Below are positions 7,181 through 58,104 of a DNA stretch of 64,000 bases, piece after piece. Within the stretch, counting starts at the first letter, position 1. Every line of letters starts with the position of its first letter. Made by a program: the position numbers and the translations under genes. Below the pieces are notes generated by a model. That model saw only the letters and a list, made by a program, of their open reading frames with translations, was not told the DNA's origin and did not search any database. The stretch comes from Brasenia schreberi (Eukaryota > Streptophyta > Magnoliopsida > Nymphaeales > Cabombaceae). The stretch covers positions 3,797,001 to 3,861,000 of the forward strand of contig JAYKKT010000088.1 in assembly GCA_036023115.1 (NCBI GenBank), read 5' to 3'.

Positions 7181-7389
7181 GCTTGTAGTTTAGGTAACAC
7201 TCTCGGTGTTGACTTCGATTCCAACCCGGATTCAACATCATGAAATTTTAAATTAATGTAACAAAAGATGTGTATGTAACCCTGGTGGGTTTCAATTTGT
7301 TTACGACCACATAATTCAAGCTGCTGATTTTAATCTCACCTAAACATGAAACTAGATACGGATTGATTCTATGAATTTAGATATGTTTT

Positions 7390-7585
7390 CGTGTTGATTC
7401 TAGTTCTAGTTTCACTTAAAACTTTCTTGATACTAAGTGGGGAAACCATAAAGAAAGAGAACTGTCGGTTTCGGTTCAATCTTTCAATAGGTAGACCCAG
7501 AACTGAACCATGGGGTTCTCGGTTTCGATTTGATTTGGGTTCTAATACTGAAACAGTTCGTATCCGATTCAAACCCACCTGGCCA
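7390..7585. repeat. GGTTTCGG-rich dispersed repeat
   Basis: Dense runs of GGTTTCGGTT, GGTTCTCGGTTTCG and the complementary GAACC motifs occur here. The same word composition returns at about 9.44-9.92, 15.85-16.13, 17.63-17.95 and 30.95-31.06 kb. No protein is encoded. It is probably a non-coding member of a dispersed family. Confidence 0.5.
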
Positions 7586-25348: not shown

Positions 25349-27192
25349 CATACCTGTAACAACAACAACTAAGCCTTTTCCCATACTAGACGGGGTCGGC
25401 TACATGGATTCTTTGTTTCCACAGATCCCTATCGTGTGCCCTGTTAGCAGTTAACTCACAATAAGCTAGATCATTCTTTACTGTTTCTTTCCAACACTTT
25501 TATGGTCGTCCTCTACCTCTTTTAATACTTTCCAAATTTAGTTTTTCATACCTTCTTACAGGTTCTTCTCTTGATCTTCTTTCTATATGTCCAAACCATC
25601 TTAAACGATATTCTCTCATTTTATCCTCTATTGGTGCCACTCCTAATTTGTCACTCATCCATCTCAACATCTTCATTTCTGTCATAGACATCTTTTGTAC
25701 ATATTGATGATTAACTGCCCAACACTCAGAACCATAAAATATGGCAGGTCTAATCGATGCTCTATAATATTTACCTTTTAACTTTAATGATATCTTCTTA
25801 TCACAAAGAATACCTGATGCTCCTCTCCATTTTAACCAACCAGCATTAATTCTATGCGTAATATCTCCATCAATTCTTCCATCACTCTAGAAAATTGACC
25901 CTAGGTATTTAAAACTTTCCTTTGGGGGTATGCAATGTATGCCAATTTTAATTTCTATGTCCTCTAAAGTAACCAAATGATCAAACTTACATTCCATATA
26001 TTGTGTCTTTGTTCTACTAAGTCGGAGGCCTTTGCTTTCTAATGTTTCTCTCCATAGTTCCAATTTTCTATTAACTTTTTCTTTAGACTCCTCCACTAAC
26101 ACAATGTCATCTGCAAATAACATACACCAAGGTATTTCATCTTGAATATGTTTTGTTAACTCATCCATCACCAATATAAATAAGTATGGACTTAAAGTTG
26201 ATCCTTGATGTAACCCAATATTAACTTCAAAGAAGTCTATCATTCTTTATGAGTCCTCACACATGTTTTTGCACCATCGTACATGTCTCTTATAAGGTTA
26301 ATGTATGTCAATGGGATACCTCTTTTTTCCAAAGTTCTCCAAGGAACCTCTATCGATACCCTATCATAAGCCTTTTCTATATCAATAAATATCATATGAA
26401 GGTCTTTCTTTTTTGCTCTAAAATGTTCCATAAGACGTCTCAAAAGGTGGATCGCTTCAATAGTAGATATGTCTGGCATGAATCCAAATTGGTTCTCAGT
26501 TGTACTCGGTACTTGTCTTAACCTACGTTCGATAATTCTTTCCCACAATTTCATAGTATGACTCATTAACTTGATACCTCGATAATTCGTACAATTCTGA
26601 ATGTCTCCCTTGTTCTTATATATGGGTATAAGTGTACTCGTTCTCCATTCCTCGAGCATCTTTTGGTTTCTCCATATTTCATTAAATAGTCTTATGAGCC
26701 AAGTGATTCCTATTTCTCCTAGTATTTTCCAAACTTCTATAGGAATATTGTCTGGTCCTACTGATTTACCACCTTTCATATGTTTAAGAGCTTCTTTGAC
26801 TTCATTCTTTTGAATACGTCGGTAGAAATTGTGGTTTATATACTTTTGTGATTTGGCTAACTCTCCTAAGCTAATACTAACATCTTTATTTTCATTAAAA
26901 AGCTTATAAAAATAGTTTTTCCATCTATTTCTTATATCATTATTTGCCACTAGAATTTTTTCATCCTCGTCCTTGATGCATCTAACATAATTAAGATATT
27001 TTGTGCTACCATCTCCAAATCATAGTATCTACCACCTCCATTAGCTTACCGGATAATGTTCCAATATTCCAAGAACCAATACAAATCTTATTATCTAGGA
27101 CTAGCTTCCTTACCCCCCCCCCCTCCCACATCCGTCCATATTCAAAATGCGGAGACCCTCTCTGAAAATTATTCACCTCCATTAGCATCATA
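25349..27192 (-). mobile_element. RTE-clade LINE copy C, internally deleted
   Basis: The CAA-repeat at 25349-25360 marks the 3' tail. The reverse transcriptase is the best preserved in the window: 26240-26950 (236 aa, including [20 protein letters not shown] and [11 protein letters not shown]) and 25887-26243, with an intact FADD box (about 26110). At about 27000 the reading jumps from just upstream of the RT straight into the start of the endonuclease region (KICIGSWNIGTLSGKLMEV, 27010-27120). The linker and most of the endonuclease, roughly 1 kb, are therefore missing. It is not autonomous. Confidence 0.92.
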
Positions 27193-29400: not shown

Positions 29401-29548
29401 CGCAATGCAGTTGAAAGAGTTTTTCGGGAAGGCAGTGATGCTGGAAGATACCAGGGTCAAAAATTCAAACAAGAGATTCACTCCGATCGAGAAAAGAAGA
29501 AACAGAAACTTCGTGCTCCCTGAAAATGACTATTTGCTTGAGATTTAC

Positions 29549-30409
29549 CTGGTCATGAAGCTTGGCATTGCTAGATTCCACACTGCGTGCCAAATTCTGG
29601 AGTTTAGAGAGCATCCGTTTGTAAAGATCCTCCAAATCCGCAGTATACTTCGCCGATTCGGCACCGATCAGCCTGCTGCTAACTGGGTCGGCTTCTTCTG
29701 GAACATTCTTTCTGCTGCTGTAACCCTGATTCTCCCTCTCGTCTTCCGTGTCCAACGAGAGCCAGGAGAAGGATGAAATCGGGCAAAAGACATCGTAATC
29801 GCCGCAAAATCCAGGTCCGACGTTGATAATATCGACGGATTTCGGGACGAATACGCCTTCCCGAAGGAACTCAAAGGCTCGATGCTCGTGTGTATGAATG
29901 GAAGATTGGGGAGAAACCGAGTCGGAGAGGAGAAGGAAGACACAGGGTGGTGCGCGCTGGTTCGGAGAGACTAGGCTTTTGCAGGAATTGAGAAGGGAAG
30001 AGGAGACCCCGAATTCGCGCATAGAGGGACGAAGGTGAGTGTTCCTGCGGCCGACGAACCATCCGATCAGTGAAGACGAGGACGTCCCGGCGTCAGAATC
30101 CGGTGGCTCCACCCGCTGCTGGGAGAGGAATCTGTTGAGGACGGGTAGGCGGAGTTGGCCGGAGGCGTTGTAGAAGCTCTGAGGGGAACCGGAGCAAAAA
30201 TATCCGTCGACTAATGCGACGCCGGGGGTTGGATCGGTGGAATTGTCGTAGTCGTCACGGAGTTTGGGGGCGGAGAGGTGGCGGATGTGGCCGAAGAGGA
30301 GGCCGTCGCAATCTCCATTACAAGACGCAACTCTTTGCATCAAAGAGGCCAAGATCGGGCCCGTGATTGATACCTTCTCCAAAGGAGCATCCGCACGGGT
30401 CTCCGCCAT
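29549..30409 (-). CDS. Abraxas-like (FAM175) BRCC36-complex scaffold, first coding exon
   Basis: ATG at 30409, 287 codons, ending CAG in front of a GTAAATC donor (phase 0). The MPN-like fold reads ITGPILASLMQRV, DGLLFGHIRHL, VDGYFCSGS, IGWFVGRRNT followed by LRPSMREF, then HTHEHRAFEF and INVGPGF. This is the order seen in Abraxas proteins, which lack the catalytic zinc residues of JAMM enzymes and bind BRCC36. The end of the exon (DLEDLYKRMLSKLQNLARSV) starts the coiled coil. Known role of the family: scaffold for a K63-specific deubiquitinase in DNA repair (BRCA1-A) or the cytoplasmic BRISC. No frameshift is seen. Downstream exons must lie below 29549 and were not resolved, so the gene is incomplete in this annotation. 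Confidence 0.85.
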
Positions 30410-30780
30410 CACTGCAAACCCAGAAAAATCGAATCGCTTCTCACTTGCGATTGGCGAACAAAATCTAGCAACTCGAAATTTCAGAAGTAGATAACAGAGA
30501 GAATCCGGGACAGGATCCTCCGATCGTTTGATCGATTTATTTCTTCTTGCTGGATTGATCGATCGTTGTCGTTGCCGATGATTCCGCGGGATTGTGTTTT
30601 GTGCAGAAGCAATCTTTTCCTGCGTTTTCTTGCGAAAGACGCCGGAGGTACGTTTATCGGATCACAGGGAAGGGAATGACCCGAGGTATAGCGACGATGA
30701 TACCAGAGGCGGTGTGGTCGGGATATCGTGTCCCGCGATCGGAGGGTTCATTTTGCAGTTTAGGGAGAACTCGACTTGAG
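30410..30780 (-). promoter_or_regulatory. Probable promoter and leader of the Abraxas-like gene
   Basis: GC-richer than its surroundings, with repeated ATCGATCG words at 30526-30565. No TATA box placed. Short plus-strand open frames here have no recognisable domain. Confidence 0.35.
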
Positions 30781-32174: not shown

Positions 32175-32480
32175 CACAATTGAGAACCCTTATTTCCGGT
32201 CCTTCAATCATAAGTGCTGCATTAGCTCATGCTTAGAACATAGGCGGGCCTACATGAGATGGGGTCGGTTAAATGGATTCTTTGTTTTCATGGAGTCCCA
32301 TCATGTGCCATGTTAGCAATTAACTCACAATTGAGAACCCTTATTTCCGGTCCTTCAATCATAAGTGCTGCATTAGCTCATGCTTAGAACATAGGCGGGC
32401 CTACATGAGACGGGGTCGGTTAAATGAATTCTTTATTTTCATAGAGTCCCATCATGTGCCATGTTAGCAATTAACTCACA
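32175..32480. repeat. Perfectly phased 153-bp tandem duplication
   Basis: Units 32175-32327 and 32328-32480 are near identical, differing at only a few bases (GATGGGG/GACGGGG, GGATTC/GAATTC). Each unit contains flanking sequence (CTTATTTCCGGTCC) joined to the 3' end of RTE D. The duplication therefore happened after the LINE inserted. Confidence 0.9.
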
Positions 32481-33402
32481 ATAAGCTATAGATCATTCTT
32501 TATTGTTTCTTTCCAACACTTTTGTGGTCATCTTCTACCTCTTTCAAATACTTTCAAAATCTAGTTTTTCATACATTCTTAAAGGGTTTTTTTTAATCTT
32601 TTTTCCATCTTAAATGATATTCTCTCATTTTATCCTCTATTTGTGCAATTCCTAATTTGTTTCTAATAACCTCATTATGTATACGGTCTTTCCTTGTACG
32701 ACTCAACCATCTCAACATCTTCATTTCTATCATAGACATCTTTTGTACATGATCATTAACTCCCAACACTCAGAACCATAAAACATGACAGGTCTAATTG
32801 CTGCTCTATAATATTTACCTTTTTACTTTAATGGTATCTTCTTATCATAAAAAATACCTAATGCTCCTCTCTATTTTAACCAACCTGCATTAATTTTATG
32901 CGTAACATCTCCATCAATTCTTCCATCACTTTGAAAAATTGACCCTAGTTATTTAAAACTTTCCTTTTGAGGGATGCAATGTCTGTTAATTTTAATTTCT
33001 ATGTCCTCTAAAGTAACCAAATGATCAAACTTACATTCCATATATTCTGTCTTTGTTCTACTAAGTCGAAAGCCATTAGTTTGTAACGTTTCTCTCCATA
33101 GTTCCAATTTTATATTAACTTTTTCTTAGACTCCTCCATTACAACAGTGTCATATGCAAATAACATACACCAAGATACTTCATCTAGAATATGTTTTGTT
33201 AACACATCAATCACTATTATAAATTAAAGTTGATTATTGATGTAACCCAATATTAACTTCAAAGAAGTTTGTCGTTCCTTCATGAATCTCCACACATGTT
33301 TTTACACCATCGTACATGTCTCTTATAAGGTTTATGTATGTCAATGGGATACCTCTTTTTTCCAAGGTTCTCCAATGAACATCCCTTGATAGTCTATCAA
33401 AA
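32250..33402 (-). mobile_element. RTE-clade LINE copy D, 5'-truncated and heavily decayed
   Basis: Minus-strand similarity to copies A-C runs from the 3' untranslated region (GGGGTCGGTTAAATG) through the end of the reverse transcriptase. No long open frame is left. The catalytic region reads FAYD. Homology stops near 33402 inside the RT. The 3' end is involved in the 153-bp duplication. Confidence 0.85.
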
Positions 33403-37602: not shown

Positions 37603-37827
37603 CTGAAACCAAGTTATAACATCCACTGAATTTATCTCCAGCAAAAGATGACAAATTAATAATAGTATGCAGGGGAGAAGACTGAAAAAGCAAGTCTTTC
37701 TTTTTTCCTCAGATAGTACTGGAGGAGTCATTTAACATTATTAGATAACCAGAAAACTGATGGCAGTGACCCAAAGGTATGCTAAATGTTAAATACTTTT
37801 AAGTTCCAACTCCTTAAATGTAAGAAA

Positions 37828-40800
37828 ACAACAACAATTAAGCCTTTTCCCATACTAGACGGGGTCGGCTACATGGATTCTTTGTTTCCACGGATCCCTA
37901 TCGTGTGCATGTTAGCAGTTAACTCCCAATAAGCTAGATCATTCTTTATTGTTTCTTTCCAACACTTTTGTGGTCGTCATCTACCTCTTTTAATACTTTC
38001 CAAATTTAGTTTTTCTAACCTTCTTAGAAGTTCTTCTTTTGATCTTCTTTTGATCTTCTTTCTATATGTCCAAACCATCTTAAACGATGTTCTCTCATTT
38101 TATCCTCGATTGGTGCCACTCCTAATTTGTTTCTAATAACCTCATTATGTATACGGTCTTTTCTTGTATGACCACTCATCTATCTCAACATCTTCATTTC
38201 TGTCAAAGACATCTTTTGTACATGTTGATGATTAACTGCCCAACACTCAGAACCATAAAACATGGTAGGCCTAATTGCTGCTCTATAATATTTACCTTTT
38301 AATTTTAATGGTATCTTCTTATCACAAAGAATATCTGATGTTCCTCTCCATTTTAACCAACCAGCATTAATTCTATGTGTAACATCTCCATTAATTCTTT
38401 CATCACTCTGAAAAATTGACCCTAGGTATTTAAAACTTTCCTTTTGGGGAATGCAATGTGTGCCAATTTTAATTTCTATGTCCTCTGAAGTAACCAAATG
38501 ATCAAACTTACATTCCATATATTCTGTCTTTATTTTACTAAGTCGGAGGCCTTTGCTTTCTAATGTTTCTCTCCATAGTTCCAATTTTCTATTAACTTTT
38601 TCCTTAGACTCCTCCACTAATACAATGTCATATGCAAATAACATACACCAAGGTACTTCATCTTGAATATGTTTTGTTAACTCATCCATCACCATTATAA
38701 ATAAGTATGGACTTAAAGTTGATCCTTGATGTAACCCAATATTAACTTCAAACCAGTCTGTCATTCCTTCATGGGTCCTAACACATGTTTTTGCACCATC
38801 ATACATGTCTCTTATAAGGTTAATATATGTCAATGGGATACCTCTTTTTTTCAAAGTTCTCCAAAGAACCTCCCTCGGTACCCTATCATAAGCTTTTTCT
38901 AGATCAATAAATATCATGTGAAGGTCTTTCTTTTTTTCTCTGAAATGTTCTATAAGACGTCTCAAAAGGTGAATCACTTCAATAGTAGATCTGCCTGGCA
39001 TGAATCCAAATTGGTTCTATGTTGTACTTGATACTTGTCTTAACCTACATTTGATAATTCTTTCCCATAATTTCATAGTATGACTCATTAACTTGATACC
39101 TCGATAATTCACACAATTTTGAATGTCTCTCTTGTTCTTATATATGGGTATAAGTGTACTTGCTCTCCATTCCTTGGGCATCTTTGGGTTTTTCCATATT
39201 TCATTAAATAGTCTTGTGAGCCAAGTGATTCCTATTTCTCCTAGTATTTTCCAAACTTCTATAGGAATATTATCTGGTCCTACCGATTTACCACCCTTCA
39301 TATGTTTAAGAGCCTCTTTGACTTCATTCTTTTGAATACGTCGGTAGGAATTGTGGTTTATATACTTTTCTGACTTGGCTAAATCTCCTTAACTAATACT
39401 AACATCTTTATCGCAAACACTAATACTAACATCTTTCACCCTCTTTCTTATAAGCTTCTAAAGTTTCACTAGTTTTCTTGGCATAATGTAATTTGTAACA
39501 TGCCCTCTTTGCCTTGATTTTATTTTGCACTACTTCACTCCACCACTAAGCTTCTTTTTATGCCGGTACACCTCCCTTAGATACCCCTAACACATCTTTC
39601 GCCACTTTTCTAATATGTATAGCCATATTGTTCCACATGTCACAGGGTGTGCCAACATAATTTCAAACATCTCCTTGAAGGACTTTCTGTTTAAATATAT
39701 TTCTTTCTCGCTTTTGAGGTTCCACCATTTAGTCCGAATAGCTCGATGCACTCTTTTCTTCTTTGTCCATTTTTTTATTTGTAAATCTATAACTAAAAGT
39801 CGATGTTGGGTGGTTAAGCTTTCTCCTGGAATTACCTTACAATCTTTACAACACGCTCTATCTTTTTTTCTATAAATAAAGTAATCAATTTATGTTTGTG
39901 ATAAGCCACTCTTATAAGTAATTAAATGTTCATCTCTTTTATGAAGATTGTATTGACTATAAAGAGATCAAATGCCATAGCAAAATTTAAAATCTCCCTA
40001 CCTTCCTCGTTTATATCCCCAAAACCAAAGTTTCCATGAATCCCTTGATATCCTAATGCCTCTTTACCGACATGTCCATTTAAATCTCCTCCTAAACAAA
40101 TCAACTCCCTTTGTGGAATGTTTTGAAATGCCTTATCTAACTCTTCCCAAAAAACTATCTTTATACTATCTTCTAGTCCTACTTGGGGTGCGTAAGCACA
40201 AACTATGTTCAAAACCTTTGCTCCTAACACTAATTTCAACGTCATGATTTGGTCACCATATCATTGTATGTCTACTACACTCTCCTTTAAATCTTTATTT
40301 ATGATAATACCAACTCCGTTTCGAGCCTTTTCTTTACCTGAGTACCATAATTTAAAACCTGTATCCTCTATCTCCTTTGCTTTTTCTTCAACCCATTTTG
40401 TCTCTTGTAAACATAAAATATGAATCTTTCTCTCAATCATAGTATCTACCACCTCCATTAGCTTACCGGATAATGTTCCGATATTCCAAGAACCAATACG
40501 AATCTTATTATTTAGGACTAGCTTCCTTACCTCCCGCATCCGTCCATAATAAAAATGTGGAGAACTCTCTGAAAAATTTTCACTACATTCGGGCGACAAT
40601 GTAGCGGGACTAACTTCTTTACCCACACCCGTCCATGATGTGGGAACCCTCTTTGCAATTGATTCACTATATTCGGGCGAAAATGTAGTAGCCCTTGCTT
40701 ACTTCTTACTGCATTTAGGCTCTGCAGCACGTCGCTAGGCGGGGATGCCCTAAAGCAATCCTCATAATTTTGGTAATCCATGTTATAAAAATCCGACGAA

Positions 40801-40889
40801 GTTTTACGCTGGCTGTCGGAAGCCTAACACAACCCTCCTCCTTTATCCGGGCTTGGGACCGGCAATGCAAGGGTGATCCCTTACATGGG
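37828..40889 (-). mobile_element. RTE-clade LINE copy E, near full length (3.06 kb)
   Basis: The CAA-repeat at 37828-37839 marks the 3' tail. The reverse transcriptase is at 38180-39001 and 39017-39301. The endonuclease is at 39922-40245 and 40261-40626, including RIGSWNIGTLSGK, LCLQETKWV and GGDLNGHVG. The 5' untranslated region runs to 40889, where similarity with copy F also stops (plus strand ...CATGGGCGGAGTT), so this is probably the true 5' end. Defects are a premature stop in the endonuclease (40261-40263), a deletion in the linker (about 39405-39440), a break in the RT at 39002-39016 and FAYD in place of FADD. Confidence 0.93.
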
Positions 40890-43800
40890 CGGAGTTTTTT
40901 AGTAGAAGAGTACCAAAAGAAAATGCACTTAATTGATCTTGTATCTAGTTTATCTTTGGCGCCTTGATGAATATGAACGAAGCATGTACAGCCAAAAACT
41001 CTTGGTAATAAGTGAAATTGTTTATGGGAAGGACATAAAGAGTGAAATGGAGTATTTCCGCAGAGGACTCTGCTTGACATACGATTTATAAGAAAAACTG
41101 ATGTTAAGACTACTTCACCCCAATAATATTTTGGTACATGACATCTAATTAAAAGAGTCCTTGCTACTTCTAAGATATGCCAATTCTTCCTTTCGGCTAC
41201 ACCATTTTGTTAAGAGAGTAATAACATGAGGTCTGGTGTAAAATTCCATGATGTAGAAAATATGAGTGAAGAGATTGAGACATAAACTCTCTCCCATTAT
41301 CACTGCGAAAAACTCTTATAGTACTGTGAAATTGAGTCTGTACAAACTGACAGTATGCAAGAAGAATTTCCTTCACTTTATCTTTAGTCTTCGTAAGGTA
41401 AATTATAATAAATCTAGTACAATCATCAATAAATGAGACAAAGTACTTATGTCCATACACAAAAGCTGTAGAACACGGGCCCCGAATATCATAATGCACA
41501 ATATCAAATGGAATGGAAGATCTTTCTTCATTTAAAGGAAAAGAAATACGATGGTGTTTTGCCTTCTGGCACGTTTCACAATTCAAGTTTAAATCATTAC
41601 AATCACTAAACTCTGGTAATAACAACTTTATTTTAGAAAATGGTAAATGGCCTAGTTGTTGGTGCCAATGAGGTATATCCTCCTTCTGTTTCTCTGTAAT
41701 AATTGTTGATTGTAATGCTGCTCTTTTATTGTCCTCGTAAAAATAGAGGCCTCTACTCACATTACCCTAACCAAAGATCTTCCCCGTCTTCATTTCTTGA
41801 AAGACACATCCAGTGGAATCAAAGATTATACGACATTTCAAATCTTGAGTCATAGCAAAGACAGATAATAAGTTTATTGATATGTTTGGAACATGTAAAA
41901 CATCTTTTAATGTGCCAAAAGATGTAACAATACTTCCTTTTTCCACCATTGGAGTAAGAGAACCATCTTCCAGTTTAATATTGATTTTTGCCTGTGTCAA
42001 TTCATAGTTATCAAAGAAATCTCTTCAGCTGACCATGTGATCTGTAGTCCCAGAATCAATAACCCATATCCTTAAATAAGAAGAGTTTATATTACCCTGA
42101 GTCAGAAATGAGAATGGATAGGCAATGGTTGCTTGTGAGTCATTGTGAGAGGACGTAGATGGCTGTTGTGGATCAGTCAAACGAGCTTTTAGCAACTCAA
42201 TCTCTTTTTTCATATCTGCCAATGAAGTTGCATTGTCTTCAGCCTTTTGTTTTTCATTCTGATCACTGTTGAAATATGCTTTGTTGGGTCTATTCTTAAA
42301 ATGGATAGGTTTCCAACTAACTCCCAGCATGTTTCCTTGGTATGTCGTGATTTTCCATAATGAGATTTAGTCATTTTATCCTTTTCTTTAGGTGTCAGTC
42401 CAGGTCTACCTCTGCCTCTACCATAACCTTCTCTTTCCCGAGCGAAGAGAGGAACATAAGTATTTTTTCCAATAAATGTTGAGGTCTCTGAATTAATTTT
42501 GGTTTCATTTTCCAAATGTTTTCTGTCTTTTTCCCGAAGAAGAAGTGAGTATGAGTACACTCAAGGTTGGAAGCTCTTCTCTGTTGAGAATATTATTCTT
42601 TATAGCCTAATATTCTGATGAGATGCCCTATAGGAGGTCAAATACTTTACGTTCTTCAAATTCTTCATTTTGCTCTTGTGTGCAAATCTAACACTTTGTC
42701 TTAAAATAAAGCTTTAGTTCTTCCCATAGACTTCTGAGTTCTGCATAGTATTCACTGACTAACCTTCTTCCCTGTATGCATTTTCGAATCTTTTCTATTA
42801 GATCATACTTATTAGCAATATTTTTCCTTTGGGCATAAGCTTCCTGTACTGCCTCCTAAATATCCTTAGCAGTCTCTAAGAACATAAATGTGTTGTCATT
42901 GGAGGGTGTCATGGATTGGATTAGCCAGGCACTTACTAGTGCATTTTCTCTACGCCATCGAGAATACTAAGGATCTGAAATTGGGGGTTGAGGTATATCA
43001 CTTGTTAAATAATCCCATCGCTCCCTGGCCATAATGGCCAGCTCAATAGATCTGGCTCATTGTAGATAATTCTTGCCATCTAGTTTTAAATTTGTGATTT
43101 GAAATCCTTCACTCTTCTCTGACGAATTAAGTTCATTACCATCTACCATCTTTGTTCTCTCCATCTTTGTAGAGTCTCTGATAAAAGTAGTTGACTGTAA
43201 ATGTAGGGAGTCGGCAACCTTCCTTGGGATGATTTCTTAATGGAGATATATCTTCAAATATGCCCCAGTCATTTGAACACTGATAGTATACCTTTTTGGA
43301 GAATAGGAGACAAGGTTATCTTATTTTATCTTCTTCTTACCAATCGATAAAGTCTAACAATAAAGTTGATGATGTTGGCGGCCACAAATCAATCAACAAG
43401 GGTCAATCGCAGCTCGTTATGAAGATAATAAATATATCTAACAAAGATTATGCAAACATATCAATCAAATACCGATTCTAACAAACAGAAGAGAAAGAAC
43501 TTGCTGTCCACTATTCCCTACGAGTTCTTCACTTTGCTCGTAACCCTCTTTTCTGTTTTCCCTTCTCGGTTTGATGCGAAATGGCCACGATAGGCTCTAA
43601 TACCATGTTGGATTTATGCAGCAGAATACATCTCTTTATTGATAATAGAAGAAACTTACAGCAAGAGAAGAAAAGAGGTGCAAGTCGGCCACCTCCAGCC
43701 GCCTTCCTCTCATTCACGTGTTTCCTCTTCTTTAAACCCTAATGACACTAAGTATTTATAATGCTAATCTAACTTGAAAGACCTAAATGCCCCTAGTTAG

Positions 43801-45517: not shown

Positions 45518-47501
45518 CTCCCCCTCAAGTTGGGTGAAAGACACAACTTGGATAACATATCTTTGAGTTGTCTGCTAGCAATAGCTTTAGTAAAAAAATA
45601 AGCTCTCTGATATGTTGATTTAACATACTCCAATTTGAATTCTTGAAGAACAATCTTATCTCTGATAAAATGACAGTTAATTTCAATATGTTTGGTCCTT
45701 TCATGATATAGAGGATTAGAAGCCATCTGAATTGCTGCACTGATGTCACAATATAGTGGTATAGGATGTATAGGATCAAATCCCAATTCACTTATTAGAG
45801 AAGCTACTCATTTGCCTTCAAACATTGCTTGAGTTATGGCTCTGTATTCGACTTTCTCGTTGCTCGATCTTGCAACAATGGGGCCTGCTTTCTTTGCTTT
45901 TTCATGAAACTCAGAGTTACTTCCATTGCGTGAAACTAACAAGAACCTAATGTCAATTACCAAGTAATTCTAGCATCACATAGTCCCAATCTGCATCAAG
46001 TAAATAATCAATCCAATGATATTAGTATGGACTCTCTTTCATACTAATACAAGCCCTTTCACGCAGGTGATCTTTGATCCCGTATCTTAGAATTCGTTGA
46101 TGCATATCCCGTATTCCAATGGACTCTCATGGGTTGAGATCCTGCACAAATTGTGAAATCACACTGACAGAATACGCTAGATCCAGGTCTGGTATATAGG
46201 TAATAAATTAAGCTTTCCAAACTAATCTGTACAGGTATCCGCTAGATTCTCCAGTAAGGCTCAGACCTCTTTATCAGCTTCAGCAGCTTTGGATTTTTGT
46301 TCCATGGGAGTATGCAGCCTGGGTAGGCCTTTACAATCAAGCTTTCCCGTTTCTTCCAGAATATCTATGGCGTATTTCCTTTGAGAAACAAGCATACCAT
46401 GTTCATGAGAATCGGGCAACTTCAATCCTAAGGAAGTATTTAGTCTTCCAAGATCTTTCATTTCAACTCAACCGAATTGTGTAGCTCCCTTCAATCAGGC
46501 TTAATCTATTCTTGGTCATCACCCGTTATAATCATATCATCAACATACATAAAAGGATAACCACAAAGAGCACCTAAATGAATGTTTGACCACGAAGAGA
46601 CTTGAATCTGCATCACTTTAATGGTCCGCCTCGAATCCACAAATCGTGCCAAACCATTAACAACTTTATTGTGCAATCTTCCCAAACCAAGCACATGGAG
46701 ACCCAAGTTTTAACCCGTATAAAGCCTTCTTTAACGGACACACATAACACCGATGTTCCTTCCGAGCAAGGGGAAACCTATCCAGGTGAACATATCCATG
46801 TAAATTTCCTCCTCCCGTATCACCCTATAAGAAGGCATTTTTAACATCAAGCTGTCAAAGATCCCACCCCAAATTTACTGCCATACTAAGGAGAATTCAT
46901 ATTGATGTAAGCTTAGTCACTCGTGCAAAAGTTTCTGTATAGTCGATGCCATATGACTGACTGTAGCCTTTAGTCACTAATCTGGCTTTATATCTTTCAA
47001 AGGTACCATCTGCCTTATACTTAATAGTAAACACCCATTTGCATCCTATAATATTTCTATCTGAAGGTAGCTGTGTGATGGTTCATGTGTTATTTTTCAC
47101 AAGAGCATTCAACTCTTCTTCAATTGTTGCTTTTCATAAGGGGCACTTATTGCTTCTTCAAATTTAGAAGGAATCTTCTATTTATCAGCATTCATAACAG
47201 AGTTTTGATAATTCAGAGAAGTATTTGCATATAAAACATAATCAGAAATCGGATAACGGGCACATGTATGTTTACCTTTGCGAATGGCGATAGGAATGTC
47301 TAGATCTTCTTCTTCTTGAGGATCTCAATCAGGAGAAATCTCTTTGGTGATTTGATGTTGTACTGTTCTTTTTTGGGGATAAACAATATTCCTTGATCCT
47401 CTCTTATACATCAAAATTTCCTTTGATTGATCTGATTTTTCTTCATTATCACCAGTAATAGTGTAATACTTTCTGCTTCACTAGGAATTAGAGGAAGAAC
47501 A

Positions 47502-47820
47502 TGTTGAAGAATATGAGTTTTGGAGTCAGTTTTAGTAAGGTTGATGTCTTAGGACAGTAAATTTGATGTTTTAGGTATTATTGTAATTGTCCGAAGTCAT
47601 AAGGGTATTTTGGTAATTTTCTATATTAGGGATATTTTAGTCATTTAATGTTTTACAACTCCTTATATAAGGGTTGAGAGGTTGTATTAGGTTTTAAGTT
47701 GCTGGGATTAAGAAAGAGAGAGAAAGAGTAGGGGCGGCCTCCAATTTCCTCCGATCTCCAAATTTCCTCTTCATTGTGTATGATCTTTTTCTTTTCCGTT
47801 ACGCAATCTCGTTTTCAACA
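47502..47820 (+). repeat. 5' LTR of NA1
   Basis: 319 bp, TGTTGAAG...TTCAACA. A TATA box (TATATAA, 47664-47670) sits in CTCCTTATATAAGGG, the likely promoter. Confidence 0.95.
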
Positions 47821-49234
47821 TGGTATCAAAGCCTCCGATTGTTGAAAGAAGTGGTTGCGGATGTGCGGCGAAGAAAATATATATATATATATATACATAT
47901 ATTAAGGTTGAAGGAGATTTGCTGTTATGGAACTCGATGAGATGAAGAAGAGGCAGGGAGCCAACTTCTGCAAGTGTGCAGATTGTTCAGTCTACACACC
48001 TTCTGCAAGTGTGCAGGGAACTGGTAGTCTGGTAGTTTGTGAGGTCTATCATATTTTGAGGGCATCCATCAATGTTGGAAAAAGGTTGAAAGATGCTACA
48101 TTGAATGGTGTGCCATCATTTTTTTGGTATGGAATTGGTAGCTGGAACTGTTTGCTTTGTATTGAGAAGGTAAGAAGGCCTGGGAATGGAGCAGAAGAGG
48201 AATTAGGATTTTCTGGTTGTGGATAGGATGAAATTTCTGATTTTTATCATTGAAGGAGTGGAGTCCTCGTTCATGAATTCATGGAGAGCATGACGATTCT
48301 TCATTGTGGACTTTATATTGGGTCATTGTTCATCTCTATTCTATCCTGAAAGGTTTGATGGGCAAGCAGAACAGTACTCCCACCATTGTCATGGTTTAGT
48401 CTATTCTTCTGGCTTCTATTTTCTCATTTGTGTGGGTGAGGGTCAATCCATTTGTGAGCAGATCAACAGGGCCTGTACTAGAAATACGTGGACTGGATTG
48501 TGAGTACAACTAGTACAGTCTGTCATCGGTTGGGCTTTCTGTAGGTAGGGGGTCGGCCAGCTGCAAAGAGGAAGATTTGCATCATAAACAGCATAACAGA
48601 TTGAAGCTGCAGAAGCCTGTGTAGATAATCATATTGAGGCTACATCGGTCGAATGAGTGCTCTAAGAAGGAACATGTACCATTGATGGCAGATGTTGTTA
48701 GCCTGTTACAGTATGTAGAGGGGCTCCACAATGCAGCTACGCAGTTCCAGCTTGGGTTGAAGAAGGAAGGCTATTAGTTGCCTAAAGTGAATGGGTCATC
48801 ATTTCTCAAAGTAGTTACACACTAATCTAGAAAGTAAGATTTGAATTTTTTAGAAAGGTAATTTCATTTCAATTTTTTGAATTTCAAATACTGGAAATGG
48901 AAGTTACAGATTATTTTTTCCTGATATTGTGGAAAGTAAACCAGAAAGGTAGATATGGAAAGTACTTTTCTGATTTTGTGGGAAAGCTAACCAGAAATAG
49001 TTATAGAAATTAATTTCCTGATTTGGTGGAAATGATAAGGAAAAGAAATCAAGATAAGGATGATTCTAAAAATAAGGATGAGTCTCACATTTTTTTTTAG
49101 AAAAGAAAAAGGTAACTTCTAACCATCATCTCCAAAAAGAAAGTGAATGCAAGAAAAGGAATGTGGTTGATTATAGCAGGTGAATAATCACATGTATGGA
49201 AGTGGAGCAGCAATCCAAATCTAATTTATAATGT

Positions 49235-49728
49235 ATGAATGAGCTCACTAGACAAGGCAGATTTGAGGAAGTAGACCAACTATATGATCGATTGTTGGAA
49301 GATGGTTTAGCCCTCGATCTCATAATATACAATCTAATGATTCATGCTCACTCAAAATTTGGTGATATACAAAAGGCATCCCGGCTGCAGGTAGATATGA
49401 TAAAGGATGGAATAGGTATTAACGAGATGACTTACTCGAGTCAGATAGTGAGATTGTGCCGGGAAGGAAAGTTGCATAAGGCAGATAAACTCTTCATGCA
49501 GTTGAAGGATAAAGGGTTGGTGAATAGCAGTGTTATGTATCTCTCATTGATTGGCACTGCAAGTCACACGACTACCATGGAGCTTACCACTTGAGCAGAG
49601 AAATGGCCAGAAAGGGGTTCTGTCTTGAGAACTCCCTATGTGATGTACTGGTTGATGGCCTCAAGAAGGAGGGCAGAGTGCATGACGCCGAGCTTCTTAT
49701 TGCTGAGATGGAAAGGAGAAATGAATAG
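49235..49728 (+). pseudogene. Captured pentatricopeptide-repeat (PPR) gene fragment in NA1
   Basis: Tandem 35-residue P-class PPR motifs: RFEEVDQLYDRLLEDGLALD followed by LIIYNLMIHAHSK, then KASRLQVDMIKDGI, GINEMTYSSQIVRLCREGK and KADKLFMQLKDKG. A frameshift at about 49570-49590 moves the reading, which then continues through HLSREMARKGFCLENSLCD and GRVHDAELLIAEMERRNE to TAG at 49726. About 4.5 repeats remain of a normal gene with ten or more. PPR proteins bind organellar RNA. This piece lacks any start, transit peptide or full array and is a retrotransposon passenger. Confidence 0.85.
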
Positions 49729-50374
49729 TTATTGCCTCAAGTTGAATTGAGATTACCTTGTTGACATCCATTTTTGTTTGACCTCTCAATCTGCCACCCA
49801 GACTTTTAGATTTTGAATCCCAATTTTCCCTCTCACGCAACTTCGTGCTATAACTTGCAAGAGTCAGAGAAGGGCAAAAGAGAGTTCACATTCTAAGATG
49901 GGAGTAAATTCTGGAAAAACTTTTGCATCAAGAGTTCATATTCTCAAGTGAGTTCTTGCGAAATTATCCAAAGTGAAAAGTTGTGGTGATGGTTCACAGA
50001 TGATTGCTTTAGTTCTCTAGCACCTGGCAGATCAGCTTTCTTTGATATTTCATAGTTGATGTAAGCTAGGAACAACGGTAGAGAAATCCTTCAGATCTCG
50101 GTGCTTGATGGATGATTGCAGAGGACGTTTTGCATGACTTTGGCTAGGTATGGACACTATATATGTATATATGAGAAGAGATGCGTCTTCCCAGCAAATC
50201 ATTCCAACTATTCCCTTTATGGAAGATGGTGATTACTATATGCTACTTACCTGCAAGTATGAAGAGGTGTATGTTCCTGCACTTGAAGACTTTGTCATCA
50301 TTTCTGATAGAACTGGTGTATGATAATGATATATCAAAACATCTTCGTTGTGATAGATGGGCAATATGCAGACC

Positions 50375-50527
50375 TTCAAGTTTAGTTCTGTTAGAACTTG
50401 AAAGACATGTTATCGTTGCTAGGGCAGAATATGAAACAAGAATGAGGTCCATGGAAGAGAAATGGCAAAAACAGATGATGTCATTGGAAATGAGTATGAT
50501 TGCAGCTAAGAAGAGCTTGTTGCAGCC
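50375..50527 (+). pseudogene. Captured coiled-coil fragment in NA1, possibly from a myosin VIII tail
   Basis: An open run reads ELERHVIVARAEYETRMRSM, then EEKWQKQMMSLEMSMIAAKK. It is strongly helical and resembles the end of plant class VIII myosins, where a similar E-E-x-W-Q-K-Q-M-x-S-L pattern is found. A frameshift near 50525 moves into ELVAAMRASEGPPSENGAND. The assignment is from memory of the family and is tentative. Its position between LTR and 3' domain shows it is a passenger. Confidence 0.45.
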
Positions 50528-51677
50528 ATGAGGGCAAGTGAAGGACCTCCTTCAGAGAATGGTGCCAATGATGTAGGTTTAGTCCTAAATGCACAAGTTG
50601 CTACAAGGAAGATAGCTGCCATATATGAATCATGTGCAGGAGAGAGTATGTTGAATTATTAGTAGAGTTACATCTTCTTTAACAAGAGATCATCATGTCG
50701 AAAGAGTGACAAAGATGTTAAGAAAACAATATTAAGAAAACAAGAAAGAGAAGCCAGCCGTGTAGGGCTCCAATGTTCAGTTGTAGGCAGATTGGATGGA
50801 AGGTCTCCAATCTACTAATTCTTGAAAGTTTCCATAAAATAGATAAATGCTAAAGATTGCAGTCATGAGGACTGCCGAAATGTTTTTTATTTGCAGCCAT
50901 TGAAGTTACAGAAATTTGCAGCAATGAAAGTTGCTGAAGATGAATAGCTAAGAAGGCTAAGTTGAAGAAGATTACAATCATGAAGGTTGCTGAAAAGTGT
51001 TGCAGCAAAGAAAATTGCTTAGAAAATGGACAGCTAAGGGGCTAAAAAAATTCAAAAGAATGTAGAAAATCAATCTTCTTTCACTACATATGCATGAAAA
51101 AATTAAATCATTGAAGAGGCCAGAGGAATTTGTTGATATAGAATGTGGCAGTATCACCAAGAAGCATGAAAGTTAAAACCTTGAGTTGCTGAAGTAAACA
51201 GTCAAAACCTTGTGTTGCTGAAGTAAACAGTCAGGAGGGCTAAAAAAGCGGCTGCAGTCACTATGTGAAGAGGCGCAGACCGACTAGTATGAGCAACTGT
51301 CTGTATTCTGCTATTTGAGTGGTAGAGATAGGGCACCTAACCAACACACCAGTTGTAGCCACCATATGAAGGGGCGTAGGAAAAGCCGTGTGAAGTGTGT
51401 ATGGTGGAGTAGTACCTCCTATTACAAAAGATCAGCTTTCTTAAGAGTAGAAAAACATGACTTTTGAAGTGTAGCTGCCGAATCCCTTTATGGAGAGAAA
51501 AAAAGGAGAGAGTAACCGACACCCATAGAAGGGTCGCGTGCTACCCATGTGTTCTTCATTGTTCCAGTTGTTTTACAGAAGCCTCAAAAAGATCGCTTGT
51601 GCACTTGTGGTGAAGAAAGAACCAGTTTTTTTGCAAGTTTGGAGTTCGAAGTATCTCACTCCCAACTTGAGGGGGAG

Positions 51678-52006
51678 TGAAGAATATGAGTTTTGTAGTC
51701 AGTTTTAGTAAGGTTGATGTCTTAGGATAGTAAATTTGATGTTTTAGATATTATTGTAATTGTCCGAAGTTGTAAGAGCATTTTGGTAATTTTCTGTATT
51801 AGGGGTATTTTAGTCATTTTATGTTTTACAACTCCTTATATAAGGGATGAGAGGTTGTATTAGGTTTTAAGTTACTGGGATTAAGAAAGAGAGAGAAAGA
51901 GGGGGGGCGGCCTCCATTGGAGGTCCGCCCCCTCCTCCGATCTCCAAATTTTCTCTTCATTGTGTATGATCTTTTTCTTTTCCGCTACGCAATCTCGTTT
52001 TCAACA
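51678..52006 (+). repeat. 3' LTR of NA1
   Basis: 329 bp. It differs from the 5' LTR by scattered substitutions and by retaining GGAGGTCCGCCCCCTCC, which is missing from the 5' LTR. TATA box at 51837-51843. Confidence 0.95.
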
Positions 52007-52177
52007 GAACATACGGAGAATGTTGTTGAGATAGACTTGACTCCCCCTTGAAAGCATAATATGGAGTAGATTCACTAAAGGTGACATCCATGGATACATA
52101 CATTTTTTTAAGAATCAGATCATAGTATTTATAGCCATTTTTAGAATTTGAATAACTAAGAAATATACACTTGACAG

Positions 52178-52507
52178 TGTTAAGAATATGAGTTTAGAGT
52201 CAGTTTTAGTACATTTAATGTCTTAGGACAGTAAATTTGATGTTTTAGGTATTATTGTAATTGTCCGAAGTCGTAAGGGTATTTTGGTATTTTTTTGTAC
52301 TAAGGGTATTTTGGTCATTTTATATTTTACAGCTCCTTATATAAGAGATGATAGGTTGTATTAGGGTTTAAGGTTGCTGAGATTAAGAAAGAGAGAGAAA
52401 GAGGGGGGCGGCCTCCATTAGAGGTCCGCCTCCTCCTCTGATCTCCATATTTCCTCTTAATTGTGTATGATCTTTTTCTTCTTCGCTGTGTAACCACGTT
52501 TCCAACA
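52178..52507 (+). repeat. 5' LTR of NA2
   Basis: 330 bp, TGTTAAG...TCCAACA, clearly homologous to the NA1 LTR throughout, including CTCCTTATATAAG. Confidence 0.95.
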
Positions 52508-52675
52508 TGGTATCAGAGCTTATTTTGATCGTTGGGAGAAATAGAGAGATTATTTTCCAACAACGTTGTCGTTCCGGTCACTTTGAGGCCTAACTCACTG
52601 CCGGCTCTTGCATATGTTGTTGGGTTGTCGAGTGGTAAGAGGAATCACGTGGAACCCATCTTAAGGGGTCCTACA

Positions 52676-53220
52676 ATGGCACATCAATGGGCAAAGATCG
52701 TCTTTCATCGGATTAGGCTTTTGCATTCATTTTCTTCGTCATCCTTCTTTTTAAGGTTTTCAGATTCGGGACCGAAGTTTCACCCTTCTTCGTCCATGGG
52801 CCGATTCTCCTTCTCCCTTCTGCGTCATTCTAGCAGCGCTGATCTGCAGCCTCAGTTGTTCGTGGATCTGTTGAAAATTATGGAACAAAGAGTGGCAGAG
52901 ATTGAACGGAGGAGCACTCAGCTTCAAAATACCATTGCTCAGTCAGAAGTAACATCCGAAGAGTATAAGGGCTACCAAGGAACTGCGTAGACTTGGGGGA
53001 ACTATGACACTTATAAAGGATGTGAGGGAAAAGCAGCAGGAAATTGATGGTTTAAAATCTTTAATCACTGAATCTCCTGAAGACAAAGACATGCATGAAA
53101 TGGTTGCTCAGGAGTTGGATGAAGCAACTGAAGCAGTAAATAAATTGCAGTGTACTTCTCAAATCCTTACTCCCAAAAGATGATGCTGATGAAAGGGACT
53201 GCATTTTTAAAGTTGGGTTA
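52676..53220 (+). pseudogene. Captured organellar peptide-chain release factor 1 (N-terminal part) in NA2
   Basis: An ATG at 52676 opens a serine/arginine-rich presequence (MAHQWAKIVFHRIRLLHSF) of the mitochondrial type. The PCRF domain follows: LFVDLLKIMEQRVAEIERRS, then RATKELRRLGGTMTLIKDV, KQQEIDGLKSLITESPEDKD and LLPKDDADERDCIFKVG. Frameshifts occur near 52965 and 53165. The sequence then departs before the GGQ peptidyl-tRNA hydrolysis region, so no active factor is encoded. The exon order is continuous with no intron-like interruption, as expected for a captured spliced message. The normal role of the parent gene is stop-codon-dependent termination of organellar translation. Confidence 0.85.
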
Positions 53221-53265
53221 GAAGGTTTGCGAGGAGGACCAACAAGGATGCTCAAGAAGAGTGGT

Positions 53266-53490
53266 GCACATCAAATGTTTGACGAAATGTCCAAGAAGAG
53301 CTGAGTTACTTGCACATCAAGTATTCAATGAAATGTCAAAGAGAAATATTCAACTGCACATCAAGTGTTCGATGAAAAGCCTAAAAGAGATGTTTATCTG
53401 CATATCAAGTGTTCGCTGAAATGCTCGAAAAGAGATGTTTACCTGTGCATCAAGCGTTTGAAGAAATGTTTAAGAAAGATGAAAAAGATT
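53266..53490 (+). repeat. Five-unit minisatellite in NA2, potentially encoding a PPR-like motif
   Basis: Units start at 53266, 53312, 53356, 53400 and 53447 (44-47 bp). The consensus translates as AHQVFDEMPKRDVYL, which resembles one half of a PLS-class PPR motif. Unit lengths that are not multiples of three break the frame between units. It could be a locally expanded piece of a second captured gene. Confidence 0.7.
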
Positions 53491-54152
53491 TAGAAAAAGA
53501 TTCAGAAGATATAAAGTAGCAGGTGATGATGTCCTTCGTTGAAAAAGCAGCTAAATGTGAGTTTAGAGTTGTTGATGGAATGCAGAAAATCAGTTTTTCT
53601 CACTATGCATGCATGACAAAGCAAATCATAGAAGATGTCAGAGGAATTTGTTGATATAGAATGTGGTAGTATCACCAAGAAGCATGAAAGTTAAAACCTT
53701 GAGTTCCTGAAGTAAACAGGCAGGAGGGCTGGAAAAGCGACTGCAGTCACCATATGAAGGGGCGCAAACCGACTAGAATAAGCAGATGTCTCTATTCTGC
53801 TATTTGAGTGGTAGAGAGAGGGCACCCAACCAACACACCGACTGCAACCACCATGTAAAGGGACGCAGGAAAAGCCATGTGAAGTGTGTATGGTGGAGTA
53901 GTACTTCCTATCACAAAAGATCAGTTTTCGCATGAGTAGAAAAAACATGACTTTTGATCACTTTATGGAGAAGAAGAAAGAGAGGGAGCAACCAACACCC
54001 ATAGAAGGGTCGTGTGCTATCCATGTGTTCTTGATTATTTAGGTTGTTTTTATAGAAGCCTCGAAGAGATTGCTCGTGCACGTGTTGTGAAGAAAGAACT
54101 AGTTCTTTTGCAAGTTTGGAGTTAACGTATCTCACTCCCAACTTGAGGGGGG

Positions 54153-54478
54153 TGGAATATGAGTTTAGAGTCAATTTTAGTACATTTGATGTCTTAGGAC
54201 AGTAAATTTGATGTTTTAGGTATTATTGTAATTGTCCGAAGTTGTAAGGGTATTTTGGTAATTTTCTGTACTAGGGGTATTTTGGTCATTTTATATTTTT
54301 CAGCTCCTTATATAAGGGCTGATAGGTTGTATTAGGGTTTAAGGTTGCTGAGATTAAGAAAGAGAAAGAAAGAGGGGGGCAGCCTCCATTGGAGGTCCGC
54401 CCCCTCCTCCGATCTCCAAATTTCCTCTTCATTGTGTATGATCTTTTTCTTCTCCGCTATGCAACTACGTTTCTAACA
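54153..54478 (+). repeat. 3' LTR of NA2
   Basis: 326 bp. It begins TGGAATATGAG and ends TTCTAACA, immediately before the second GACAG. Confidence 0.95.
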
Positions 54479-54861
54479 GACAGATCTAAGATCCAGTTTA
54501 TCACGGTTAGCAAATGAATATGTATAAAGCATGAGCAGCCAAAGATTCTAGGAACTAGATGAAAAAGTTTTGAATTTTGATCGAGGTATTTCATTGGACT
54601 TTCACCTGTGTGGAAGGAGTTGTCAAGTCCTTTCCCTTTGCCAGCCATTAGTCAAAAAATATAATGGAACTTATCTGATATGGTTTATTTAATCGGCCAA
54701 AAAAATGTTTTGCTTTATTGAATTTCAATCGCCTAGTAGAAATAGATATGAATGTATATGTCTGAATAGCCAAACACAGAAGAATGATCAATTACGATTA
54801 GATCTTCATTGAATTTTCTTATAATGAATCGCATGACTGAAGAAAAAATTCTGAATCAAGT

Positions 54862-55890: not shown

Positions 55891-58104
55891 TGGGCGTAAT
55901 GGTATCTTCTTATCACAAAGAATACTTGATGCTCCTCACCATTTTAACCAACAAGCATTAATTCTATGCATAATATCTCCATCAATTCTTCCATCACTCT
56001 GAAAAATTGACCCTAGGTATTTAAAACTTTCCTTTTGAGGGATGCAATGTGTGCCAATTTTAATTTCTATATCATCTAAAGTAACCAAATGATCAAACTT
56101 ACATTCCATATACTATGTCTTTGTTGTACTAAGTCGGAGGCCTTTGCTTTCTAATGTTTCTCTCCATAGTTCCAATTTTCTATTAACTTTTTCCTTAGAC
56201 TCCTCCACTAATACAATGTCATCTGCAAATAACATACACCAAGGTACTTCATCTTGAATATGTTTTGTTAACTCATCCATCACCATTATAAATAATTATA
56301 GACTTAAAGTTGATCCTTGATGTAACCCAATATTAACTTCAAAGAAGTCTGTCATTCCTTTATGCGTCCTCACACATATTTTTGTACCATCATACATGTC
56401 TCTTATAAGGTTAATGTATGTCAATGGGATACCTCTTTTTTCCAAGGTTCTCCAAAGAACCTCCCTCGGTACCCTATCGTAAGATTTTTCTAGAATAAAT
56501 ATCATGTGAAAGTCTTTCTTTTTTGCTCTAAAATGTTCCATAAGACGTTCAAAAGGTGAATCGCAGCAATAGTAGATCTGCCTAACATAAATCCAAATTG
56601 GTTCTCTATTGTACTTATACTTGTCTTAACCTACGTTCGATAATTCTTTCCCACAATTTCATAGTATGGCTCATTAACTCGATACCTCAATAATTCGTAA
56701 AATTTTGAATGTCTCCCTTGTTCTTATATATGGGTATAAGTGTACTCGCTCTCCATTCCTCGGGCATCTTTTGGTTTCTCCATATTTCATTAAATAGTCT
56801 TTTGAGCCAAGTGATTCATCTTTCTCCTAGTATTTTCCAAACTTCTATATGAATATTGTTTGGTCCTACCGATTTACCACCCTTCATATGTTTAAGAGCC
56901 TCTTTGACTTCATTATTTTGAATATGTTGGTAGAAATTGTGGTTTATATACATTTATGATTTGGCTAACTCTCCTAAGCTAATACTAACATCTTTATTTT
57001 CATTAAAAAGCTTATAAAAATAGTTTTTTCATCTATTTATTGTATCATCATTTACCACTAGAATTTTTTCATCTTCGTCTTTGATGCATCTAACATAATT
57101 AAGATCTTTAGTTTTCTTATCTCTAGCCCTACCTGTCCTAAAAATATCTCTTTCACCCTCTTTTGAGTTGAGTTCTTTATATAAATCTGACCAAATTTTA
57201 GCTTTTGCTTCACTTATAGCCTTTTTTGCTTCCTTCTTTGCTTTCTTATAAGCCTCTAAAGTTTCACTAGTTTTCTTAGCATAATGTAATTTGTAACATG
57301 CCCTCTTTGCCTTGATTTTATTTTGCACTACTTCACTCCACCACCAAGCTTCTTTTTGTGCCGGTACACCTTCCTTAGATACACCTAATACATCTTTCGC
57401 CACTTTCCTAATATGTATAGTCTATGTCACACGGGTGCGGGTGCGGGATACGATAAATTTTAAAAATTTTGGGTGCTGCGACACGACTAATGTACATAAT
57501 ATTATATATATTATATATTCAAGGTAGAACAAGTGAGACATCAATTAACATAAGTACATGACGACAATAGTAAGTGCACAACTTTATATTAAAGCAAAAC
57601 ATGTAAACAACTACTAATTTAATTTCATCATAATACACAAATCAATCAAAAAGAAAATCAGGATTTGCAGATCAACAATATTATAAGTGAAGGGACTATC
57701 GGCAATATTATCAACTATGAAGTTATGAACAATATTATCATAATACAAGGTGCCTCACGTGGTATCTATTCCGGTCGCGATCAGTGTCTGCAGAAGAACC
57801 CACTACATTTACTCGACACGAATTGATAAGTAAAAACTAGGCTTATGCATTGCCCACAAATATGTAGACTGGGTAAGCGCGTGTTACAAGGGCCTTATTT
57901 ATGGGTTCATTACACCCACTCCTTGGGGTATTGGGCCAGCCATACACCTAAGGAGGCAGTTTCGGATGGTTCAACCCGAATATTTATTGGGATTTTTTTT
58001 ACTAAAAGAAGTTAAGAAATCTCAACAACAAAAAAAGTGGGAAAAAAGTTAGCCCTCGATTATTTTTAAGGTGCTCGCACAACATAGTTCAATTCCTAGT
58101 TTGT

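Follow-up and report, generated by a model that had tools for sequence, protein, structure and literature searches.

Two neighbouring long terminal repeat (LTR) elements of Brasenia schreberi, here called NA1 and NA2, carry host gene sequence between their LTRs and raise the question of whether this cargo was acquired by a single accident or by a family of elements that captures genes repeatedly. Both lie in a 64,000-nucleotide stretch (the window) of contig JAYKKT010000088.1, C88:3797001-3861000 in our contig numbering. An earlier note on this DNA had proposed a systematic gene-capturing family with a conserved carrier and exchangeable cargo. We find that copies of the carrier lie at many sites in the genome, that its cargo varies, and that sequence blocks which lie apart in four of the donor genes are joined in the cargo. 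We consider it very probable that one non-autonomous, copia-like LTR family acts as a carrier that has repeatedly taken up host mRNAs.

Comparison of the window with itself places NA1 at 47502-52006 and NA2 at 52178-54478, each with paired LTRs that have TG...CA ends. Their parts are listed below, where TSD stands for target site duplication, PBS for primer binding site, ORF for open reading frame and D3 for the constant 3' domain.

47497..47501, unstranded: left TSD of NA1, GAACA
47502..47820, +: 5' LTR of NA1 (TGTTG...CAACA)
47821..47832, +: PBS of NA1, TGGTATCAAAGC, directly 3' of the 5' LTR
47833..51057, +: cargo of NA1, common to loci L014, L016 and L017 (also L015 and L032)
49235..49969, +: PPR-gene piece of NA1 (Pfam PPR, E 1e-16)
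50175..50528, +: ORF of NA1 earlier termed a coiled coil, no family match
51058..51675, +: D3 of NA1, with the polypurine tract at its end
51678..52006, +: 3' LTR of NA1
52007..52011, unstranded: right TSD of NA1, GAACA
52173..52177, unstranded: left TSD of NA2, GACAG
52178..52507, +: 5' LTR of NA2
52508..52519, +: PBS of NA2, TGGTATCAGAGC, directly 3' of the 5' LTR
52564..53213, +: cargo of NA2, a spliced release-factor mRNA piece (donor C57:8881490-8885163; paralogue on C46)
53265..53487, +: minisatellite of NA2, ~44-bp unit, PPR-like motif AHQVFDE(K/M)PKRDVY
53578..54151, +: D3 of NA2
54153..54478, +: 3' LTR of NA2
54479..54483, unstranded: right TSD of NA2, GACAG

The homology claimed in the earlier note is borne out. 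The LTRs of NA1 and NA2 are 84-90% identical, each element has its own perfect TSD on both sides, both have the PBS and the polypurine tract (PPT), and the two D3 domains match at 80.5% (BLAST, E 2e-168). Within each element, the LTR pair is 94.3% (NA1) or 93.6% (NA2) identical over aligned bases, and 90.6% or 93.5% by BLAST, which counts gaps. We take the NA1 PBS to be of the initiator tRNA-Met type. A paralogous copia at 22995-23863 matches, in separate pieces, the flanks of both insertion points (54606-54480, 52177-52011, 47497-47471 and 47414-46907), and NA1 and NA2 are therefore insertions into one older copia. This host element is in reverse orientation and is spread over 46907-54606 (-); the two matches that flank NA2 have 4 bases of the related copia in common, near the length of a target duplication. 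Decayed copia pieces with reverse transcriptase or integrase sequence are found in the window at 23299-23868 (+), 40715-41766 (-) and 46907-47414 (-).

The genome (1.055 Gb, 92 contigs) was searched with the NA1 LTR and with D3. For each query the best 40 scored matches were kept, out of 3196 and 1638 first-look candidates, respectively, and these figures are not copy counts. Fifteen loci (L014-L028) were read by LTR similarity, best-ranked first, and 12 (L029-L040) by D3, at ranks 6 to 17, after five NA1-type matches; L009-L011 (release factor) and the siblings L048-L051 were picked by cargo, and L001-L008, which are flanks of matches, were not analysed apart. Because the best-ranked loci were read first, the sample leans towards NA1-like copies. 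In all, 35 family interiors were read (91,892 bp, a total that for some copies includes the whole stretch with its LTR). The cargo catalogue comprises 29 interiors, three of which (L009-L011) were chosen by cargo; outside it stand L019, which has an LTR and PBS and lacks D3, and L015 and L032, which were taken as NA1-type and show no 5' LTR within the stretch read. For L030, L031, L033 and L040, the 5' boundary was judged by eye. This genome-wide check, which the earlier note had suggested and which was run in part, showed that the 35 copies do not share one interior, and an accident confined to two copies is thereby rejected.

The sampled copies have the hallmarks of an LTR retrotransposon: paired LTRs, TSDs, a PBS and a PPT. 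A 5-bp TSD was found in 15 of the 26 copies tested, with a different sequence in each; a further copy shows a 4-bp match, and the remaining 10 show none at the boundaries used. The PBS motif is found at or near the end of the 5' LTR in NA1, NA2 and most copies, and was not seen in L040. D3 is near-constant, with 88% mean column identity in an alignment of 23 sequences, all of which end in the G-rich PPT. Among the 15 loci chosen by LTR similarity alone, D3 exceeds 500 bp in 11, is cut to its last 60-284 bp in three (L021, L025 and L026) and is entirely missing in one (L019). Elements mostly measure 2.1-4.7 kb from LTR to LTR, with LTRs of ~330 bp, which is longer than the very short elements classed as TRIMs (1.2-1.4 kb in the soybean cases). 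LTR pairs are 89-97% identical in the 21 copies measured, corresponding to ~1-8 million years at the two substitution rates that we assume.

Copia integrase and reverse transcriptase probes gave 0 matches in the 35 interiors, NA1 and NA2 included, and nine matches in the window as a positive control. The claim that NA1 and NA2 carry neither gag nor pol thus stands for these two pol domains; for gag it extends as far as the Pfam scans of cargo ORFs, which returned no gag or pol model. The defining feature of Ty1/copia, a gag-pol with integrase before reverse transcriptase, is thus not seen in the interiors read. With no pol detected and its cis signals kept, the family is a non-autonomous LTR element of the TRIM/LARD kind. 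We take it to be copia-like from its PBS, PPT and 5-bp TSD only, and on these grounds, together with the missing integrase and reverse transcriptase matches, we file it as a non-autonomous, copia-like element. One member, L020, sits inside a copia integrase region of which both halves still match (flanks 2897-3019 and 7000-7434).

Between the constant parts, the cargo is diverse. A hand count from an all-against-all comparison gives 20 cargo groups in the 29 interiors (L020 with L034, and L030 with L031, counting as one group each), and in 18 of the 29 at least 39% of the length has no match to other members. We searched Pfam with 51 cargo ORFs, 44 sense and seven antisense; sense ORFs were favoured as input, so that the observed sense bias is not a fair test of strand. 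At E 0.01, 34 ORFs matched (32 of the 44 sense and 2 of the 7 antisense), and 16 families, 14 of them in sense frames, scored above the Pfam cut-off when all PPR models and all RING models were counted as one each.

PPR: NA1, L020, L021, L024, L026, L031, L034, L035, L038
PCRF of release factors: L010, E 7e-8
Villin headpiece: L018
GIP1_N: L020
Porin: L026, barely above the cut-off
Calcineurin-like phosphatase: L025, L027, L050
RING: L028
EMP70: L029
Malate dehydrogenase: L033
Ras: L031
Response regulator: L038
MBD: L040
Cpn60_TCP1: L049
SWIM: L050, possibly of transposon origin
Dynamin: L035, antisense frame
5'-3' exonuclease: L039, antisense frame
Below the cut-off: WD40 in L022 and L027, GH17 in L028, Snf7 in L036, PPR in L030 and L040
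By match to PDB: GlyRS in L023 (3e-17); lariat debranching enzyme (1e-9) and G-beta (7e-5) in a single open frame of L022; PP2A in L025
By NCBIfam: CCT epsilon and relatives in L049 (1e-51)

Among 10 proteins compared with NCBIfam, the only matches were L049 and L028, the latter to a rad18 model far under its cut-off, and a PDB search with one L031 ORF gave no match. ORFs with no Pfam match include those of L036, L037 and L040, the longest frame of NA2 and the NA1 ORF at 50175-50528. The earlier description of the NA1 middle as PPR plus a coiled coil thus holds for the PPR part, and the supposed coiled coil matches neither Pfam nor NCBIfam; by eye, we take it to resemble a plant class VIII myosin. 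The release factor recognized in NA2 is upheld by the PCRF domain of the L010 copy and by the donor gene. Single elements often contain pieces of at least two genes (L020, L022, L025, L026, L031, L035, L038, L049 and L050). The antisense dynamin frame does not reflect antisense capture, since the sibling L048 holds the piece in sense; in L035, 378 bp of the captured dynamin cDNA (positions 425-802 of the cargo, counted from the PBS) were inverted afterwards, and this inversion is absent in L048.

Donor genes were sought with five genome queries (the NA2 release factor, L025 PP2A, L035 dynamin, L020 GIP1, and NA1), and four of them show that the cargo derives from spliced transcripts. The release-factor cargo is present in four full copies (NA2, L009, L010 and L011), and the gene on C57 matches it in separated blocks; at least three introns, recognized by eye from splice-like GT/AG flanks, are missing from all four copies. 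PP2A cargo matches C37 in nine blocks across 5.5 kb, dynamin cargo matches C92 in blocks across 4.4 kb with splice-like flanks, and GIP1 cargo matches C71 in five blocks across 4.2 kb, with flanks read for the last block only. Donor-cargo identity ranges from ~88% to 99%. Because stretches that lie apart in these four donors are joined end to end in the cargo, the captured template was spliced RNA, and the release factor, PP2A, dynamin and GIP1 pieces are cases of RNA-mediated gene transduction, like that of Bs1. The PPR piece of NA1 has contiguous host-like loci at C89:42253157 (93%) and, with a gap, C92:30175587 (95-96%), and is uninformative about introns.

How could a carrier in which no polymerase was detected acquire spliced mRNAs? 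A literature model describes template switching, guided by microsimilarity, between the RNA of an LTR element and a co-packaged mRNA (PMC5408686, PMC13317346, in the parts consulted). The family fits this model. From 5' to 3', the carrier consists of LTR, PBS, a short or absent leader, cargo, minisatellite (in 21 of 29 interiors), D3 of ~600 bp, PPT and LTR. Its RNA would be packaged in trans into the particles of an unseen copia, together with host mRNAs. Reverse transcriptase would start at the 3' end, copy LTR, PPT and D3, and then jump to a host mRNA at short common sequences; it may jump to further mRNAs before returning at or just after the PBS. As minus-strand synthesis would begin in the 3' LTR and D3 and jump only afterwards, the 3' domain would stay constant and the 5' interior would be exchangeable. 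Copies bearing cargo would then amplify and recombine with each other.

The joins themselves are as expected of template switching at several junctions, which have 2-7 common bases or in-register PPR joins; the set is small, being limited to cargoes for which donors were found. In L025, a 313-bp piece (C74, 95%) stands in place of a few PP2A bases; at its two ends, GC (2 nt) and TTCGTA (6 nt), read by eye, are common to the piece and PP2A. The PP2A end in L025 adjoins the PBS, where the PP2A retrocopy on C48 reads TCTGAGCAAGAGG and the element TATCAGAGCAAGAGG, so that GAGC (4 bases) is common to the PP2A sequence and the PBS; this comparison uses the C48 paralogue, not the donor's own exon. 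CTCAAAG (7 nt) is common at the dynamin/PPR junction of L035, and AGCAA (5 nt, by eye) at the pair upstream, one side of which is known solely from another family copy. The PPR donor of L035 and the minisatellite diverge within a motif that reads ATGAAATGC in the donor as in the element. In L020 and L034, PPR genes from C80 and C56 are fused in register at ATGGAAGTTGCT, inside or adjoining the single open frame of long PPR ORFs. A random join would share six or more bases with a chance of 0.0013-0.0015 per junction. A short repeat is common to L018, L025 (L025:4769-4850) and the NA1 group (NA1 ~48790-49010), and the portion in L025 recurs at many other genomic sites with 92-96% identity.

Members also exchange cargo. 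The 3' half of PP2A is common to L025, L049 and L050/L051, joined at its 5' side to PP2A itself, CCT epsilon and a SWIM protein, respectively. L020 combines a GIP1 part also present on C60 with a PPR part also present in L034 and on C36 and C45 (matches on C36, C45 and C60 were not read). NA1 and NA2 each belong to a small subfamily in which several copies have the same cargo. Because members recombine and subfamilies repeat the same cargo, part of the variety consists of reshuffled earlier captures. Replacement in the 5' direction fits two sets that were read (L020/L034 and L025/L049/L050-51), and unread matches to the PPR part of L035 suggest a third.

Several observations weigh against this account. 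Strict 5'-ward replacement misfits two sets, L030/L031 and the release-factor group, where the 5' parts are common and the 3' parts differ. The release-factor junctions have almost no common bases, and the donor has a further 68-bp gap with no clean splice sites. The exonuclease piece of L039 (1730-2263) lies antisense to its element, and 12 of the 44 sense ORFs have no Pfam match. A coding copia with the family LTRs, which the earlier note had recommended looking for, was absent among the copies read in a limited search, and no autonomous partner was found among them. Covariation in D3 was not convincing (covariation term -1.79; 10 of 135 pairs with two-sided changes), and a packaging role for D3 is accordingly an inference only.

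The lack of any integrase or reverse transcriptase match would also be expected if the copies were deleted derivatives of an ordinary copia, with D3 as its 3' end, incidental host pieces and passively arising variety. The copia-like PPT and PBS agree with such an origin, as do L021, L025 and L026, where only the end of D3 is left. However, this leaves unexplained why many sampled copies have host mRNA and none has a detectable pol remnant. We judge it unlikely as the whole explanation; an origin by deletion from copia is compatible with the carrier explanation.

The recombination seen in L020 and in L025/L049/L050/L051 raises the possibility that all of the variety goes back to a small number of ancient captures, perhaps a single one, whose copies then decayed and recombined, with no ongoing capture. 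Sixteen protein families and mostly unique 5' cargo (the 18 of 29 interiors noted above) speak against this, and donor identities from ~88% to 99% misfit one old event, making it highly improbable. Capture at the DNA level, by recombination or by insertion of gene fragments into LTR elements in the manner of Pack-MULEs, seems to us barely credible: pieces from C74 and C70 and the PPR pieces of NA1 and from C80 do match contiguous genomic stretches, which are uninformative on introns, whereas intron loss for four multi-exon, non-PPR donors contradicts it in those cases. Repeated capture of host mRNAs by one carrier family thus remains our preferred explanation, and the proposal of a systematic gene-capturing family was largely right: many copies have the 3' domain in common and differ in their host cargo, with the qualification that captures are partly reshuffled.

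The minisatellite had been regarded as cargo specific to NA2. This proved mistaken, as 21 of 29 interiors contain units at 70% identity or more; those without them at this threshold are NA1, L014, L016, L017, L018, L025, L026 and L035, the last of which has weaker units. By hand count, PPR pieces occur in 7 of the 20 cargo groups. For the neighbouring counts 8/28 and 6/24, rather than 7/20 itself, the binomial tail is 1e-8 to 6e-5 at a base rate that we assume to be 1.6-3% of genes. A PPR piece adjoins the minisatellite in L020/L034, L024 and L035, adjoins a repeat-rich common part in L021/L026, and does not adjoin the minisatellite in NA1 and L038. We tentatively raise the idea, which we think somewhat less probable than its negation, that the minisatellite serves as a homology pad: it might pair with the PPR motif of mRNAs during reverse transcription and steer the jumps, so that the family would preferentially collect PPR genes and splice them in frame and in register, and then take up other mRNAs upstream. 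PPR is among the commonest domains in LTR-captured genes of both rice and sorghum (PMC3726574, in the part consulted), and PPR genes may thus simply be easily captured.

The window has further features of its own. Six related repeats, mostly 83-94% alike, lie at 1-4652 (two), 25357-27004, 32408-33402, 37827-39411 and 55897-57420; in the one copy tested (38180-39016), an RVT_1 domain of non-LTR type was recognized. A tandem array with units of ~120-145 bp, as judged from self-match offsets, occupies 16321-17272. A 398-codon open frame at 29465-30661 (-) encodes an Abraxas-type MPN domain (E 9e-11) and is probably a host gene exon, and 13818-14318 (+) is a piece of an exostosin GT47 gene (E 1e-28).

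Host-gene capture by LTR elements is already known, and the comparisons that follow reflect the consulted parts of the cited papers. Maize Bs1 is an LTR element with transduced pieces of three host genes (PMC13317346), exons only (PMC4717578); it resembles the NA family in holding host exons inside an LTR element, but is one element with one cargo set, against 20 cargo groups here. TRIM elements with gene fragments, such as soybean GmaRetroS15 (30 elements, 7 subfamilies, 1,172-1,449 bp), have exon-only cargo, with three host genes in one element, and 5-bp TSDs (PMC4717578), and so share multi-gene, exon-only cargo and TSD length with the NA family; no constant 3' domain with exchangeable cargo is described there. 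A maize survey counted 425 LTR retrotransposons with gene fragments, from at least 189 captures in 81 families, and under its conditions found no element with more than one standard nuclear gene (PMC2774510), whereas multi-gene copies are frequent in the NA family. In pepper, LTR elements with no gag or pol hold spliced host genes and account for ~72% of retroduplicated NLRs (PMC5664825); the stress there is on NLR copies, while the NA family has mainly fragments of unrelated genes and PPR genes. Rice and sorghum have 672 and 1,343 LTR-captured genes (PMC3726574), in genome-wide tallies where, unlike in the present case, no one carrier family is described. Pack-MULEs, which are DNA transposons carrying exons and introns (PMC4717578), likewise combine fixed ends with exchangeable host cargo; the NA family is not one of them, having direct LTRs and lost introns instead of terminal inverted repeats and kept introns. 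In the literature searched (titles and abstract openings, with few subscription journals), no single carrier family of this kind was reported.

Plant gene capture by LTR elements thus appears in the consulted literature mostly as single cases or genome-wide tallies, and the novelty here lies in a single carrier family whose 3' end is fixed and whose cargoes are many, exchangeable and often drawn from more than one gene. For annotation, it matters that cargo copies may be called genes; L050, for example, has a 233-codon open frame running into PP2A. The family is a natural record of template switching, from which junction rules, mRNA choice, multi-gene fusion and the order of events can be read. 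If the minisatellite does act as a homology pad for PPR mRNAs, it would tie a mobile-element repeat to the way in which a very large family of plant RNA-binding genes has grown and been shuffled.

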